From: Pedobacter cryoconitis | GTDB taxonomy: Bacteria > Bacteroidota > Bacteroidia > Sphingobacteriales > Sphingobacteriaceae | NCBI RefSeq assembly: GCF_014207135.1 | Contig: NZ_JACHCC010000011.1 | Location: forward strand, 62,001-126,000 | Direction of reading: 5' to 3' | DNA length: 64,000 nucleotides | Shown: positions 14,309 to 39,538 of the stretch, piece after piece | How positions within the stretch are numbered: position 1 is the stretch's first letter | How the letters are laid out: every line of letters starts with the position of its first letter | Notes under the pieces: generated by a model | What the model was told of the DNA's origin: nothing | The model's input: the letters and a program-made list of their open reading frames with translations, nothing else | The model's database searches: none | Translations under genes and position numbers: made by a program

Positions 14309-15661
14309 TTAAGTATTCAACTCACGTGCCAGTTTAATTAAATCTATACCACCAAAGTTACCAGAGCTCATTAACAATAGGTTAGTTTGGTTAAAATCTA
14401 ATTCTCTCAAGTATTGCTCAAGAGTAGAGGCATTATCAAAAAACGTAAGCTTTTCGCTATTAAATGCTGTTCGAACATCCATTTCTGTGAAAGGCTTAAT
14501 TTTTTTTTGTTGAAATGTTTTTATATCTATATATACGATAGGATTGTCTGCTTGGATCATCGTATCTGCATATTGTAGTAAAAAATTTTTATTTAAACTA
14601 CTAAATGTGTGTAATTCTATACAGGCTACTAACTTTCTTTCCTCAAACTGTGACTTTACCGCCTCAATGGTAGCTTTTAATTTTGAAGGAGAATGTGCGA
14701 AATCTTTGTACACATTAGTGCTTTTTTCCGTGTTTAACAACTCAAGCCTTTTTGCAGCTCCCTTAAACGAAGTAATCGCCTGATTAAATTTATCTTCAGA
14801 AATCCCTATTTCTTTACAAACCAATTTCGCCGCACTTAAATTCATCAGGTTATGGTCACCAAAAATTTTCAGCGGTAAATTCTCCGGTAATAAATAAGTT
14901 ATACCATTAGTAACGCAATGAGGGGGAATTTCGTATTCCTCCTTAATAATTTCCTTTGAAGTATTTTCAACCAATTTGTGTAATTCTTCATCAGTCTTAC
15001 AATAAATTAATTTACCTCCTGGCTCAATAGTATCGATGAAGAGTTCAAACTGATGTAGATAATTTTCAAAAGTGGGAAACACATTCACATGATCCCAGGC
15101 AACACCGCTGATTACCGCGATATTTGCTTTATATAAATGAAATTTTGGTCTTCTGTCTATCGGAGAGGCTAAATATTCATCTCCCTCAATAATAATTAAA
15201 GGAGCAGAATCAGTGACTTTAACCATCGTATCGAATCCTTCGAGCTGAGCGCCTACCAGATAATCGAAATCTTTTTGATAATAATTCAATACGTGCAGGA
15301 TCATTGAAGTGATAGTCGTCTTACCATGACTTCCTCCTATCACTACGCGTAGCTTATCCTTAGTCTGTTCGTAAATATATTCGGGATAAGAATAGACTTT
15401 CAAGCCCAATTCCTGCGCCCGCAATAATTCAGGATTATCTATCAGTGCGTGCATTCCCAGAATGACAGCATCCAGATCCGGAGTGATTGATGCAGGATCC
15501 CAACCCAGTTTTTCTGGTAGAATCCCATACCTGGATAATCTGCTTGCCGAGGGCTCAAATATCAAATCATCTGACCCGGTTACTTTAAATCCCTTCTTAT
15601 GCAAAGCTATCGCCAGATTGTGCATTGCACTTCCTCCAATAGCTATAAAATGTATTCGCAT
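14309..15661 (-). CDS. mpl: UDP-N-acetylmuramate:tripeptide ligase Mpl
   Basis: A 450-residue Mur-ligase-family protein that re-attaches recycled L-Ala-gamma-D-Glu-meso-DAP tripeptide to UDP-MurNAc in the cytoplasm. The N-terminal Rossmann domain (MRIHFIAIGGSAMHNLAIAL) has the Mpl-type GGSAMHNLA rather than the MurC GIGGIGMS form. The ATP loop GSHGKTT is at residues 110-116. EGDEYLASPIDRRPKF is a typical Mpl segment, and FKGAAKRLE and DFAHSPSK mark the C-terminal domain. Its length matches the family. Immediately upstream, between it and prmA, lies a copy of the intergenic hairpin repeat. Confidence 0.92.
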   Translation of the reverse strand: MRIHFIAIGGSAMHNLAIALHKKGFKVTGSDDLIFEPSASRLSRYGILPEKLGWDPASITPDLDAVILGMHALIDNPELLRAQELGLKVYSYPEYIYEQTKDKLRVVIGGSHGKTTITSMILHVLNYYQKDFDYLVGAQLEGFDTMVKVTDSAPLIIIEGDEYLASPIDRRPKFHLYKANIAVISGVAWDHVNVFPTFENYLHQFELFIDTIEPGGKLIYCKTDEELHKLVENTSKEIIKEEYEIPPHCVTNGITYLLPENLPLKIFGDHNLMNLSAAKLVCKEIGISEDKFNQAITSFKGAAKRLELLNTEKSTNVYKDFAHSPSKLKATIEAVKSQFEERKLVACIELHTFSSLNKNFLLQYADTMIQADNPIVYIDIKTFQQKKIKPFTEMDVRTAFNSEKLTFFDNASTLEQYLRELDFNQTNLLLMSSGNFGGIDLIKLARELNT

Positions 15662-15702
15662 CTCAAATATTAAAAAAAATAAAGCAAAAAATACTTTTTT
15701 TT

Positions 15703-15864
15703 AGAGCCTTTTTAGATTTAGATGCTCAAATTGTTTATAGCTTATCTTTAAGCGAAACGAGGATTATTTATTTCTGGTAGCCTTCCTACCTGAAATGAAT
15801 AAGACGATGTTGCAGCTAAAAAGAAGCATAAACAAATGAGCAGATGAATCTTTAAACAGGCTCT
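15703..15864. repeat. Intergenic hairpin repeat, copy A
   Basis: A 162 bp element between prmA and mpl. Its ends are AGAGCC (15703) and GGCTCT (15864), with nested AGATT/AATCT and GCTC/GAGC inverted segments inside. The core, from about 15729 to 15815, is shared with copy B at 36567-36799. It contains a small hairpin (GCTTA/TAAGC, 15740-15753) and a large one: 15764-15780 pairs with 15786-15802 around the loop CCTTC, 17 pairs with one T-T mismatch and one G-U. On the minus strand it follows the prmA stop by 2 bases. No coding frame is present. Confidence 0.8.
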
Positions 15865-15866
15865 TA

Positions 15867-16706
15867 TTATGCCTTTATAAATCTGGCGGCTACCCAGTCT
15901 CCAATTTTTTTATGATCGCAATAATTTATCCCCAACGCCTCACATGCATCCTTAATCATCTGTAAATCTGGTTCTTCATAAAACCCACTGAAGAAAATCT
16001 CTCCTCCGCCTTTTAATACACCGGCATATACAGGTATTTGATCCAGTAAAATATTGCGGTTAATATTGGCGAGAATAATATCATATGTCCTGGCAGGAAT
16101 AACTTCTTTTCCACCACACAATGCAGTGATATTGTGAATATTATTCAGCAGTGAATTTTCTTTTGCACTAAGGTAACATACTTCATCGTTATCGATAGCA
16201 ATTAATTCTCCTGCACCTTTTTTAGCAGCAAGAATAGCCAATATGGCAGTACCACATCCCATATCCAGGATCAGTTTACCAGAAACATCGCTTTCCAGTA
16301 TGTACTGCATCATCATGGTTGTTGTCTGATGATGCCCCGTCCCGAAAGCCATCTTGGGATCTATAACAATCTCATATTTATATTTTGGTTGGTGAGGATG
16401 AAAAGTCGCTCTTACGTAACAGGTCTCATCAATGATCAGGGGCTCGAAATTTTTCTCCCACTCTTCATTCCAGTTTTCTGCAGCAATTTCGGTTACAGTA
16501 TAATCGTAATCGAATTCACCTTCAAACTGAAGAAGGATATCCTTAAGGTTCTCTTCCCTATAGCTATCGGAATCTATAAATGCAGAAAACCCGTTTGTAG
16601 TCTCTTCAAATGTGTTGAATCCGATTTCAGCCAGTTCACTAATTAATAAGTCTTGTTGATATTCCTGAATCAGCCTAAAGCTGAAAGTAACCTGAATATA
16701 TTGCAT
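15867..16706 (-). CDS. prmA: Ribosomal protein L11 methyltransferase PrmA
   Basis: A 279-residue SAM-dependent methyltransferase that trimethylates ribosomal protein L11. The N-terminal 90 residues form the L11-recognition domain. The linker carries DPKMAFGTGHHQTT (residues 116-129), typical of PrmA. The SAM motif I is LDMGCGTAILAI (147-158), and LANINRNILL replaces the usual NPPY-type motif as in other PrmA proteins. The start codon overlaps the tpiA stop by 1 base (TAATG), so the pair is translationally coupled. The repeat copy A follows its stop. Confidence 0.93.
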   Translation of the reverse strand: MQYIQVTFSFRLIQEYQQDLLISELAEIGFNTFEETTNGFSAFIDSDSYREENLKDILLQFEGEFDYDYTVTEIAAENWNEEWEKNFEPLIIDETCYVRATFHPHQPKYKYEIVIDPKMAFGTGHHQTTTMMMQYILESDVSGKLILDMGCGTAILAILAAKKGAGELIAIDNDEVCYLSAKENSLLNNIHNITALCGGKEVIPARTYDIILANINRNILLDQIPVYAGVLKGGGEIFFSGFYEEPDLQMIKDACEALGINYCDHKKIGDWVAARFIKA

Positions 16707-22379: not shown

Positions 22380-24293
22380 ATGGTATCATTTAACGAATTC
22401 TCTACCGTTCCCAGTCTTTTAAGAAACGTAGTAGAAAACATTCACAAACCTGAAGAAACATTCTTAATACATAAAAAGAATAATGAATGGGAAAATATCT
22501 CATTTAAGCAGACGCTTGACAAAGCTGACTACGTATCTGCATTCTTTTTAGCACAGGGAATAACCAAAGGTGACAGAATGGGCCTGATGATTGAAAACGG
22601 TCCCGATTATGTGTATTATGATCAGGGGATCCAGCAGATTGGCGCAATCAATGTATCCATTTATCCTACCTTATCTGAACAGGAGGTAGAATATATTATT
22701 AATGATTCGGGCATAAAAGCTTTACTTGTTGGCAATCCTTTTCTTTATAAAAAGATCCTGAAAATATCAGATAACTGCAGGCACCTTCAATATATTATTC
22801 CTGCTTTTGCAGAATACACCAAAACGGTTATCCCTGAAGGACTGAACAAAAGTATCATCAGTTTCGGGGAGGTCTTAAAACAGGGCAAGGAACTGCTATC
22901 TACTTATCAGGTTAAAATAAAAGAAGCCAGAGCAACTGTACGTCCTTCAGATATATCTTCCCTGATCTATACTTCAGGAACTACCGGTACTCCGAAAGGA
23001 GTAATGCTCTCCCATAGTAACTTTGTGGAAAATGTAAAGGTTTGTCTGCAGCAGATCCCGGTAATTGATGAGACAGACGTATTTTTATCTTTTCTCCCTT
23101 TATCCCATGTCTTTGAAAGGACAGCTACTTATCATGTATGCTGCGCCCAGGGATGCAAAATTGCCTACGCACAAAGTCTGGAACTGCTAGCCAAAAACAT
23201 GGCTGAAATCAGACCTACGGTTATGAGCTGTGTACCTCGTTTACTGGAACGTATTCATGATAAAGCTATAAAAAGTGGTACAGCCGAAGGCGGATTAAAA
23301 GCTAAGATATTTCTTTGGGCACTGGAAACAGGGCAAAATTACCGCCAGAAAATTGAAGCTGGAAAATCAGCGGGTATCATCCTGTCTGTAGAAAAAAGCA
23401 TCGCTGAAAAATTAGTATTCAGTAAAATCAAAGAGAAAACTGGTGGAAGATTAAAATTCATGATTTCGGGCGGAGCAGCCCTTCCTAAAAATGTCGGGGA
23501 GTTTTTCGGTAATCTGGGTATTAAAATCCTGGAAGGATTCGGCTTGACGGAAACATCGCCGGTAATGGCTGTAACTGAATATGACAGACAGGTATATGGC
23601 ACTGTAGGTAGAATTATTCCTGGTATTGAGGTCGCCATTCAGAATATCGAAACCAAAGAGATGATCAGCATACAAACACATGAATCATTTCAGGAAAATT
23701 TTGAATGTGAAGAAGGAGAAATTATAGTTCGCGGACATTGTGTAATGCAAGGGTATTTTAATAAACCGGCAGAAACTGCCGAAGCTATAGATAAAAACAA
23801 CTGGTTTCATACTGGTGATATCGGTCGCTTCTACAAAGGTAATCTTCAAATTACCGACCGCTTGAAAAACATGATCGTGAATGCTTATGGAAAAAATGTT
23901 TATCCTACTCCAGTTGAAAACATTTACCTGAAAAGTCTTAAAATTGATTCACTATTTTTAATTGGAGATAAAAGAGAATATCTGACCGCTATTATCATTC
24001 CCAACAGAGAAAGTTTGCAGGAAAAGTTCAACTTACCAGATGCTTTCTTTACGAAACCGGAGATCTTTATCAATGAACCGGAGATCGTGGAGTGGATTGG
24101 ACAGGATATCAGGAAGCTATCCGGTGAATTATCAAAATTTGAACGGATTAAAAACTTCAGGATTAAAAGAAATCCATTCAGTATCGAGGATGGTGAGATT
24201 ACTCCTACCATGAAAATAAAGCGTAAAGCGGTCGAAAAGATCTATGCCGAGGCTATCAATGAATTATATACCGAATCAGTTGAGGCTGATTAA
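22380..24293 (+). CDS. Long-chain fatty acid--CoA ligase
   Basis: A 637-residue AMP-binding (ANL superfamily) enzyme. The P-loop-like motif YTSGTTGTPKGVMLSH is near residues 197-212. The A5-type motif EGFGLTETSP follows near 385. FHTGDIGRFYKGNLQITDRLKNMIVNAYGKNVYP carries the ATP-contacting Asp and hinge, and a C-terminal Lys lies in EITPTMKIKRKAVEKIYAE. This architecture matches the long-chain FadD15-like type. It is alone on its strand, with repeat-like sequences between it and lysS. Chain-length preference cannot be read from sequence. Confidence 0.9.
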   Translation: MVSFNEFSTVPSLLRNVVENIHKPEETFLIHKKNNEWENISFKQTLDKADYVSAFFLAQGITKGDRMGLMIENGPDYVYYDQGIQQIGAINVSIYPTLSEQEVEYIINDSGIKALLVGNPFLYKKILKISDNCRHLQYIIPAFAEYTKTVIPEGLNKSIISFGEVLKQGKELLSTYQVKIKEARATVRPSDISSLIYTSGTTGTPKGVMLSHSNFVENVKVCLQQIPVIDETDVFLSFLPLSHVFERTATYHVCCAQGCKIAYAQSLELLAKNMAEIRPTVMSCVPRLLERIHDKAIKSGTAEGGLKAKIFLWALETGQNYRQKIEAGKSAGIILSVEKSIAEKLVFSKIKEKTGGRLKFMISGGAALPKNVGEFFGNLGIKILEGFGLTETSPVMAVTEYDRQVYGTVGRIIPGIEVAIQNIETKEMISIQTHESFQENFECEEGEIIVRGHCVMQGYFNKPAETAEAIDKNNWFHTGDIGRFYKGNLQITDRLKNMIVNAYGKNVYPTPVENIYLKSLKIDSLFLIGDKREYLTAIIIPNRESLQEKFNLPDAFFTKPEIFINEPEIVEWIGQDIRKLSGELSKFERIKNFRIKRNPFSIEDGEITPTMKIKRKAVEKIYAEAINELYTESVEAD

Positions 24294-24294
24294 A

Positions 24295-24340
24295 AGCCTG
24301 TTTAAACAGGCTCTGGAATTTTCTAAAAAAAACAGGCTCT
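24295..24340. repeat. Short palindrome with repeated AACAGGCTCT
   Basis: A perfect 18 bp palindrome AGCCTGTTTAAACAGGCT at 24295-24312 starts just after the fatty acid ligase stop. The motif AACAGGCTCT occurs at 24305-24314 and again at 24331-24340. The same motif forms the right end of repeat copy A. It looks like collapsed ends of the same element family, and may also act as a hairpin after the ligase gene. Confidence 0.6.
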
Positions 24341-36566: not shown

Positions 36567-36799
36567 AGAGTCTGTTTCAATTTAGATGGTAAAATTGTTT
36601 ATAGCTTATTTTTAAGCGAAACGAGTCCTGATTATTTCTGGTAGCCTTCCTTCCTGAAATGATCAGGACGAAGTTGCAGCCTGGCAAAATTAAGAAACCT
36701 AAACTGCATTTCGTTAATATTTAAAAACAATCCTGGTATTTCCCTACCGCATTACATTAAGCTGACGGTAATCCTAAATGGCATCTGAATCAGACACCT
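36567..36799. repeat. Intergenic hairpin repeat, copy B
   Basis: It aligns base for base with copy A at 15703 from AGAGTCTG (A has AGAGCCTT) through the core to GTTGCAGC at 36680. The large hairpin is 36626-36644 paired with 36650-36668 around the same CCTTC loop: 19 positions, two T-T mismatches, one G-U. Compared with copy A, three pairs change on both sides (T-A to A-T, A-T to G-C, T-A to C-G). Beyond 36680 the copy diverges and is longer; CATCTGAATCAGAC near 36782-36795 partly mirrors the left end. On the minus strand it follows a gene stop, as copy A does. Confidence 0.78.
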
Positions 36800-37892: not shown

Positions 37893-37948
37893 GGAGCCAG
37901 TTTAGATTGATCAGGTCTTTTATTGGATGAATTTTACACCGGCTCTGA
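37893..37948. repeat. Inverted-repeat remnant before 37955 gene
   Basis: GGAGCCAGTTTAGATTGATC at 37893 is an imperfect inverted partner of GGATGAATTTTACACCGGCTCT ending at 37946. Both halves resemble the ends of the intergenic element family. The remnant ends 7 bases before the start codon of the 37955 gene and so would lie in its leader. Confidence 0.5.
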
Positions 37949-37954
37949 GACACA

Positions 37955-39538
37955 ATGAAAAAAATATATTTCACCCTATTTATCCTGATGTCAGCAATTG
38001 CCGGCATGGCTTACCTGTACTTTTCGAATCTGACCCGCGAAACTTCTTATCAGGAAACGAGTCTGTATGCGGCAACTGCAAATTCCGGCCTGATATTCTG
38101 CATTCAGAATGAAAAAAGTGTATTTGAAGTATTGAAGGGCCAGCATTTTTTCAGAAAACTACTGGGGGAAGAGAAATTTGGGCAGCTCAGTCTATTAAAA
38201 AACGAACTGATGTCAGGCCCCACAGTCAGCAATCTGATTGGCAACCACAATATCTTTATCAGCTTTGCAGCCGGAAAAAACAAAGAGATAGACTATCTGG
38301 TCAGTACACAGTTAAATGATGAATTAGAAAAGCCAAAACTAATCACTGCAATACAGTCCAAAGGAATAACGATTACTACAGAAAACGGAATTCTGAAACT
38401 GGCACTGAAAGACAGTTCCTTATTTTATCTGAATATCGAAAAGAACCTGATCCTTTTATCAAATAATAGCGAACTGATTAAAACAGCGATGGTACATGAA
38501 CCGACCGAAGAGAATCATCAGTTTGTAGCCTATATTAAATCAGGCAATAAATTCAGTAAAAACAGCCTGGGAAATTTATATGTCGATTTCAATAAAGTCC
38601 CTGCTATTTTAAAGTCAATCCTGCCAGGCAATTTAAACGGGGGCCTTTCAGTCTTTAATCATCAGAATTCGTTTGCCACATTTAATTATAATTTCAGCCG
38701 GGAAAGAGTATTTTTCAATGGTAATTCCGAAATCCATGATCCGAAAAATTACCTGAAACTGTTTACGGCACTCAGTCCACAGCAAAACAGCATTGATAAC
38801 TTACTACCAGAAAACACAGCGAACTTCAGGTTATATGCAATGGCAGATTATAATATCTGGAAAAAATCGCTGGCCAACTGGTTTCAGATTAATAAAGAGG
38901 ATCAGAAGGTCAACAGGACCATACAAGATTTCAACAAGGAATATCACCTGAATACAGCAGATATTTTCCCCGCATACTTCAAGAATCAATTTATCACTTT
39001 CCAGCTTAAATCTTCAGAAAATCTGGCTGCTGTCAACCTGACTAACGGAGACAAGGTAAAGCAGTTTTTACTGGATATGAGTGATGATTATAATCCGGAT
39101 ATCAAAAGATTCAAAAAATCGGGTCTTTTATACTGCTATTTTGGTGAACCCTTTAAACAATTCAGCAGACCATACTATGCCATCATTGACAACAATATGA
39201 TTGTCTCCAATCAGCCTGCTGCACTCAGTTCCTTTCTGGAGGCTTACCGGAGTAATAAACTACTCATCAACACCCAGGATTATATTAACATCTACAGCCA
39301 GATTTCAAAAACAGCTAATATCACTTATTATATTAACCGTAAAAACTCTGGAGACCTGGTCAGAAAAACTATTTATCTTCCTTATTATAATCATTACATC
39401 AATAAACAGGGGCTTGAAGGCTTTAGCTCATTCGTTTATCAGCTGAGTGGTGATAAAGGAGAGTTCCAAACCAATCTTTTGCTCAATACCATACCCGAAA
39501 TCAGTCCGGATACACTCGAAAATTTAACAAATAAATAA
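37955..39538 (+). CDS. Conserved hypothetical protein with N-terminal membrane anchor
   Basis: A 527-residue protein starting with one hydrophobic helix (YFTLFILMSAIAGMAYLYF, residues 4-22) with no clear cleavage site, so it is probably an inner-membrane-anchored periplasmic protein. The body is mixed alpha/beta with repeated patterns of the type FISFAAGKNKEIDYLVST and PYYAIIDNNMIVSNQPAALSSFLEAY, reminiscent of DUF3352-like proteins, but I cannot place it with certainty. It lies 47 bp before the DUF5723 outer-membrane gene and probably forms a unit with it, which suggests an envelope role. Confidence 0.75.
   Translation: MKKIYFTLFILMSAIAGMAYLYFSNLTRETSYQETSLYAATANSGLIFCIQNEKSVFEVLKGQHFFRKLLGEEKFGQLSLLKNELMSGPTVSNLIGNHNIFISFAAGKNKEIDYLVSTQLNDELEKPKLITAIQSKGITITTENGILKLALKDSSLFYLNIEKNLILLSNNSELIKTAMVHEPTEENHQFVAYIKSGNKFSKNSLGNLYVDFNKVPAILKSILPGNLNGGLSVFNHQNSFATFNYNFSRERVFFNGNSEIHDPKNYLKLFTALSPQQNSIDNLLPENTANFRLYAMADYNIWKKSLANWFQINKEDQKVNRTIQDFNKEYHLNTADIFPAYFKNQFITFQLKSSENLAAVNLTNGDKVKQFLLDMSDDYNPDIKRFKKSGLLYCYFGEPFKQFSRPYYAIIDNNMIVSNQPAALSSFLEAYRSNKLLINTQDYINIYSQISKTANITYYINRKNSGDLVRKTIYLPYYNHYINKQGLEGFSSFVYQLSGDKGEFQTNLLLNTIPEISPDTLENLTNK

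Follow-up and report, generated by a model that had tools for sequence, protein, structure and literature searches.

The intergenic repeat that begins at position 15,704 of the window, the whole 64,000-nucleotide stretch of Pedobacter cryoconitis DNA analysed here, is a palindromic, short non-autonomous transposon (MITE) of the class Bacteroidia. A preliminary description had reported a hairpin with compensated base changes between two copies, A and B, in this window. Beyond that, the repeat is a transposon, its hairpin spans the whole element, and several of its unpaired bases are conserved too. Structural selection on the fold is well supported by comparison of copies within and beyond the genus. 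On balance, we lean towards a model wherein the MITE is mobilised in trans and its top-strand RNA hairpin is under structural selection, a reading in which we infer both the RNA and an IS5-type mover.

Copy A (Table 1) lies between a Mur-ligase gene (14309-15661, minus strand) and prmA (15867-16706, minus strand), and no ORF of at least 90 aa is present within 15704-15863. The element is short (160 bp), has no transposase gene and is multicopy. In its own genome (6.0 Mb, 29 contigs), there are eight matches of nearly full length with 90-100% identity, copy A included, followed by copy B and fragments. On the proper strand, model R1 finds the element at 10 places in this genome (18 rows, of which the other 8 are the same places on the opposite strand). 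As in other MITEs, the element is bounded by terminal inverted repeats, here GAGCCTGTTTAAA in inverted orientation, and the sequence of copy A starts with GAG and ends with CTC. By eye, copy B matches copy A in its left end and core and has a weakly TIR-like right end; it adjoins a DUF423 gene.

Table 1. Features of the two copies of the element in the window.
Feature	Position	Strand	Basis
Copy A, complete 160-bp element	15704..15863	+	Terminal repeats and TTA duplication fix the ends
TTA target duplication, left	15701..15703	.	Sequence; single TTA at the empty site of G006
Right TTA target duplication, immediately adjoining the stop codon of prmA (15867-15869, minus strand), which comes next	15864..15866	.	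Sequence; empty site of G006
Left terminal repeat, 2 mismatches to GAGCCTGTTTAAA	15704..15716	+	
Right terminal repeat, exact GAGCCTGTTTAAA	15851..15863	-	
Inner structured unit, 101 nt, basis of the models	15733..15833	+	
Apical stem with CCTTC loop, the covarying stem of the preliminary description	15761..15805	+	
Internal loops, left side: GA (15754-15755), AAC helix, GA (15759-15760)	15754..15760	+	
Internal loops, right side: GAT (15806-15808), GTT helix, GCA (15812-15814)	15806..15814	+	
Copy B, damaged: left end and core retained, right arm different	36567..36799	+	Comparison with copy A
Apical stem of copy B	36625..36669	+	Sequence

Target duplications and an empty site document the mobility of the element. 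Exact 3-bp direct repeats directly outside the ends were found in 41 of the 72 copies that have a recognisable end pair among 80 examined (~16 expected from pairing the flanks of different copies; 4 inverted). Leaving out the five orthologues of a single insertion upstream of purK, the count is 40/67 (~17 expected; 4 inverted), and where both ends are within 2 mismatches, the 3-bp duplication is found in 39/57 copies (16.6 expected). The duplicated triplets in the 41 copies are TTA (20), TAA (14) and seven others. The same pattern holds in a set of 34 copies drawn mostly from other families or unplaced Bacteroidota records, 3 of an original 37 having been lost at contig edges: 20 carry a duplication, against 7.5 expected, and none carries an inverted one. 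The size of the element is constant, at 158-164 bp in 30/34 copies. In the relative G006, no element is inserted where copy A lies, and the alignable sequence there has a single TTA, the one empty site of the analysis.

Some derivatives are shorter and have the same ends around a core that is much reduced or missing (e.g. L011, L017 and L019). In the window itself, GAGCCTGTTTAAA is matched at up to 2 mismatches 17 times, against 2.6 expected. Two short palindromes there consist of the terminal repeats only, one at 24294-24313, directly after the stop of the gene at 22380-24293, and the other at 37894-37945, just before the gene at 37955. Single ends were seen as well: in G000 (L020-L049), a 14-base end pattern occurs 121 times, compared with 9 for the reversed control, and at 14 of the 30 places that were read, no end in the opposing orientation lies nearby at up to 3 mismatches; L042 has a truncated one by eye.

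Read along one strand, the element forms one imperfect hairpin over its full length, flush at its ends. As RNA, the inner 101 nt of copy A reach -33.1 kcal/mol, compared with -15.2 kcal/mol for shuffles (z -6.6, 0/200 as good). The three pairs that had been described as compensated between copies A and B are indeed so (15767/15799, T-A versus A-T; 15766/15800, A-T versus G-C; 15764/15802, T-A versus C-G), and the two copies share the CCTTC loop. At the base of this stem, 15762/15804 (G, A) and 15763/15803 (A, G) are unpaired in copy A; the equivalent positions in copy B are paired. The preliminary description had attributed the compensated changes to selection for pairing rather than for sequence, a proposal that would fall if no further copies existed or if these had lost the pairing. 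Further copies do exist and preserve it, and the proposal is borne out when 22 inner units are aligned with MAFFT without structural information: 15 of the 39 pairs show changes on both sides. The 39 pairs were derived from the fold of a single member, L006. They are formed in 94.4% of cells, and pairing falls to 37-52% when the partner is slid by one to three columns.

Two-sided changes occupy 45 cells of this free alignment, against 12.9 in shuffles (0/500 shuffles reaching it), 271 cells in 26/39 pairs of 66 model-aligned copies of the family (87 in shuffles), and 278 cells in 33/37 pairs of a further alignment of 50 model-aligned copies (80 in shuffles), comparisons that amount to no p-values because the shuffles do not keep relatedness and of which the latter two, fitted to the model, lean towards it as the 22-unit alignment does not. 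The 22 units (A3) come from 34, excluding the other-core type, copy B and three units from the site at the CCG-domain gene described below. The 66 copies (A4) are those of 98 model hits that pass a cut, which excludes opposite-strand hits of the same palindromes and loses weaker true copies too. The 50 copies (A5), of which 37 belong to other families or to unplaced records, were chosen from 56 loci, leaving out, for example, L217, which shares its record with L244, and L229, which is truncated by the end of a contig. From model R2, two of the 39 pairs were removed, being unpaired in most members.

The unpaired parts of the hairpin are conserved along with its pairing. Among 37 representatives (<90% identity), the bulge A21 is found in 36/36 letters, A25, A31 and A166 in 37/37, and G24 in 34/37. 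Not all loop bases are fixed (column 30 is G in 19 and A in 18; column 165 is C in 28 and T in 8), and the A/T-run helix equals the best loop bases in its invariance. Across the class, an internal loop with GAGGC facing AACGAAG is nearly fixed (A33 48/49, G34 48/50, A155 49/50), and the helix beside it has other, compensated sequences in some lineages (e.g. L221 and L238).

In five species of the genus (G019, G077, G006, G065 and G013), a copy is found at the same place upstream of purK, a gene assigned by Pfam in L077, and a damaged copy in G023 has the same upstream flank as these purK-leader copies. In the five species, 181/195 cells of the leader are paired, the remaining 14 being unpaired or gapped, and five pairs have changed on both sides. 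Variable columns amount to 18/40 in the apical part, 2/39 in the outer helix and 1/10 in the loop, a contrast in rate that is modest because the neighbouring non-coding sequence is also well conserved. It is the compensated changes that carry the argument for the fold of this leader. The matching flanking triplets of the purK copy have been lost in four of the five species. The stretch upstream of this copy is a putative promoter by virtue of a Bacteroidota -7 motif. In the left arm of the unit, the conserved stretch TATTTTTG resembles the -7 promoter motif of Bacteroidota, TAnnTTTG; pairing with the opposite A-run may explain its conservation equally well.

Two other orthologous sites were observed. 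The one just after the stop of a CCG-domain gene (L077:9875-9977, L078:9790-9890 and L082:2212-2312) retains the core and has different but compensated outer helices, and its terminal repeats are not recognisable. The other consists of the right arm only, which five species retain with no left arm to match it (L077 2064-2098, L078 2201-2247, L079 14277-14311, L080 15183-15214 and L081 1117-1149).

The element is intergenic and present several times per carrier genome, with none of 80 copies inside a called ORF of at least 80 aa. Calling neighbouring genes by a simple ORF rule, we found 33 divergent, 40 co-directional and 4 convergent gaps among the 77 copies with both neighbours called, compared with 19, 42 and 15 expected by intergenic length. 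Counting orthologues once (n=70), the numbers are 28, 38-39 and 3-4, compared with 18, 38 and 14 (p 0.0006-0.0013). Co-directional gaps hold the element with the genes in 17 cases and against them in 23. The placement after a minus-strand stop codon that had been noted earlier holds for both copies in the window and not as a general rule, since both neighbours are opposite to the element in 23/77 copies.

Could the two-sided changes have arisen without any selection for folding? Template switching from one arm of a palindrome to the other, or quasi-palindrome correction, is a known mutational process in bacteria, and it would suit an element that is near-palindromic and changes most in its apical stem, nearest the centre. 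Such arm-to-arm correction should, however, erase mismatches and bulges first, and several of these are nearly invariant both in the 37 representatives and class-wide, with compensated helices on both sides of the conserved mismatches. Mismatches retained between covarying helices therefore point to selection for shape, and the conserved loops already weaken the correction account, which we consider improbable. More improbable by far is an ordinary, immobile host structure such as a transcription terminator or riboswitch. The strong fold, the position of both window copies just after a stop codon and the copy fixed before purK would all be in keeping with one, but terminal repeats, target duplications and an empty site would not, and the empty site refutes it for copy A. 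Convergent gaps, moreover, hold only 3-4 of the 70 independent copies where 14 are expected. By eye, the T-run of an intrinsic terminator is absent behind the stem at copy A, and Rfam 15 at its curated threshold gave 0 matches in the window and 0 in 20 loci with copies, all matches lying below threshold.

If the fold is selected, the selected molecule may be RNA or DNA. As DNA, an extruded or single-stranded hairpin could be part of the transposition substrate, recognised by a transposase or host factor, with any RNA fold a by-product. That the element is mobile, constant in length and folded flush from end to end favours this account, as do the lack of an orientation bias in co-directional gaps and the fact that G-T and A-C cells are both rarer than in shuffles. 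Against it, the conserved unpaired bases are mostly purines on the top strand. The top strand also folds better than its complement in 51/64 representatives, without having more G-U pairs, though the loops that cause most of the difference are shared by descent. G-U cells outnumber A-C cells by 58 to 33 (binomial p 0.011), a difference of 25, where column shuffles give a similar 18.8 +/- 4.7. Nor does mobility alone explain the fold of the purK copy, because compensation continues there despite the lost triplets. Taking these comparisons together, RNA seems more likely than DNA to be the selected molecule, and we regard selection on DNA as unlikely.

In the RNA reading that we prefer, the top-strand RNA would arise when neighbouring genes are transcribed through the element, the folded form would be what selection preserves, and the folded RNA would act as a stable structured UTR module, one copy apparently having been kept as the purK leader in a group of species. 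Candidate roles are UTR stability or processing, or help in mobilisation, any of which the hairpin may serve. A narrower version of the last role is that the ~161-nt hairpin with its GAGGC/AACGAAG loop, in the form of RNA or of a folded single strand, is required as cofactor or substrate for the mobilisation of a class-wide MITE of which one lineage keeps a purK leader; we put this forward tentatively, as a possible but doubtful interpretation.

The element would be moved in trans by a cut-and-paste transposase, probably an IS5-like one; its ends and 3-bp duplication fit IS5-type transposases. A similar element is present in G163 (L126/L292), a broken IS5-type one that encodes a DUF4096 domain, ends in GAGCTTGTCTAAAGTTTT and is flanked by an AGA duplication. 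It is like the MITE in its ends (GAGCTTGTCTAAA compared with GAGCCTGTTTAAA) and in the length of its duplication, and unlike it in that a broken transposase is present, at least two end positions differ, and the MITE interior was not seen there. Searches by end pairs for an insertion sequence with the exact ends found none in G000 (among the matches listed, 100 of 121 places), none in 12 carrier genomes (30/31 places read with flanks) and none in 20 carrier genomes (among the matches listed). Searches through the transposase domain likewise found none in 8 genomes by PF01609 and none in 20 genomes by DUF4096 (4/20 with a match), the only similar element in either case being the broken one of G163. 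A larger transposon had been suggested by copies lying 12-14 kb apart in five genomes; we dropped the idea because the frames between the copies in L077 look by eye like ordinary chromosome genes (purK and the CCG-domain gene by Pfam). An integron attC site was also rejected by eye, as its R boxes do not fit.

The element is widely but sparsely distributed. BLAST found it in 17/99 genomes of the genus. Model R1 found it in 24/301 genomes of the family and 7/25 genera, probably 6 because the match in G272 (L115) looks like a chance palindrome, and model R2 found it in 35/399 sampled genomes of the family (6/25 genera) and in 22/395 genomes of the class, its own genome included (14/196 genera). 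By all of these counts, most sampled genomes are without the element. A 22-base string from the core has exact matches in 23 stretches of the GTDB collection, whose titles all name Bacteroidota or a group inside it, and its carriers include Flavobacterium, Galbibacter, Chitinophagaceae, Niabella, Sphingobacterium, Olivibacter and Pedobacter. One query element compared with plasmids and phages gave 0 matches. A single match to a viral contig looks like coding sequence rather than the element.

Hairpin-forming repeats are familiar from other bacteria. REPIN/RAYT palindromes consist of inverted end pairs that form a hairpin, occur as single ends too, and are not expected to have target duplications. 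Our element is like them in its hairpin-forming inverted ends and its single ends, and differs in having target duplications. ERIC, Correia, QMITE2 and similar bacterial MITEs are described in the available text of a review as short, non-autonomous, intergenic and multicopy, forming a stable stem-loop when transcribed (PMC10969869), and the element resembles them in all these respects; the hosts differ. According to the same text, some MITEs influence mRNA processing, through RNase III for Correia and RNase E for ERIC, and the strings Bacteroid-, Flavobacteri- and Pedobacter have 0 occurrences in it (PMC10969869). Within the Bacteroidota, MITECca01 of Cardinium is likewise a MITE, ~240 bp long, derived from IS982 and described as unique to one strain, for which the available text reports no conserved fold (PMC9769881). 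We found no paper on the element among open-licence PMC papers, in a search that included sequence strings. Hairpin-forming MITEs, then, are already known, and what appears to distinguish this one is that its interior combines covarying helices with internal loops that are conserved throughout a class.

Bacterial MITEs have mostly been treated as passive leftovers of insertion sequences. Here, an interior architecture is kept class-wide while its letters turn over, making it directly testable whether such elements owe some of their persistence to a hairpin RNA or to folded DNA, and at the orthologous purK leader the effect of the fold could be tested on a gene of the host. Because Rfam lacks this repeat family, it can also mislead the annotation of UTRs and small RNAs in Bacteroidota.

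One genome from another family of the class, G576, has 107 matches to a 16-base end pattern, among the largest numbers seen in the matches listed, with several copies at one end-to-end spacing; this pattern is a recent burst. Among its lone-end places, seven of 20 match the element over 18-26 bp only (L276, L277, L279, L280, L281, L284 and L286), L274 matches over its 16-bp end, and at four the contig ends inside the element or shortly beyond it (L268, L269, L271 and L273). Another, L283, is a half element broken at the apex, and the remainder contain copies that are complete, shortened or damaged. Half elements that break off at the hairpin centre or close to it were seen both there (L283/L288, G576:C91:14170) and in a Sphingobacterium arenae record (L258), and look like the products of a cut through the apex of the palindrome.
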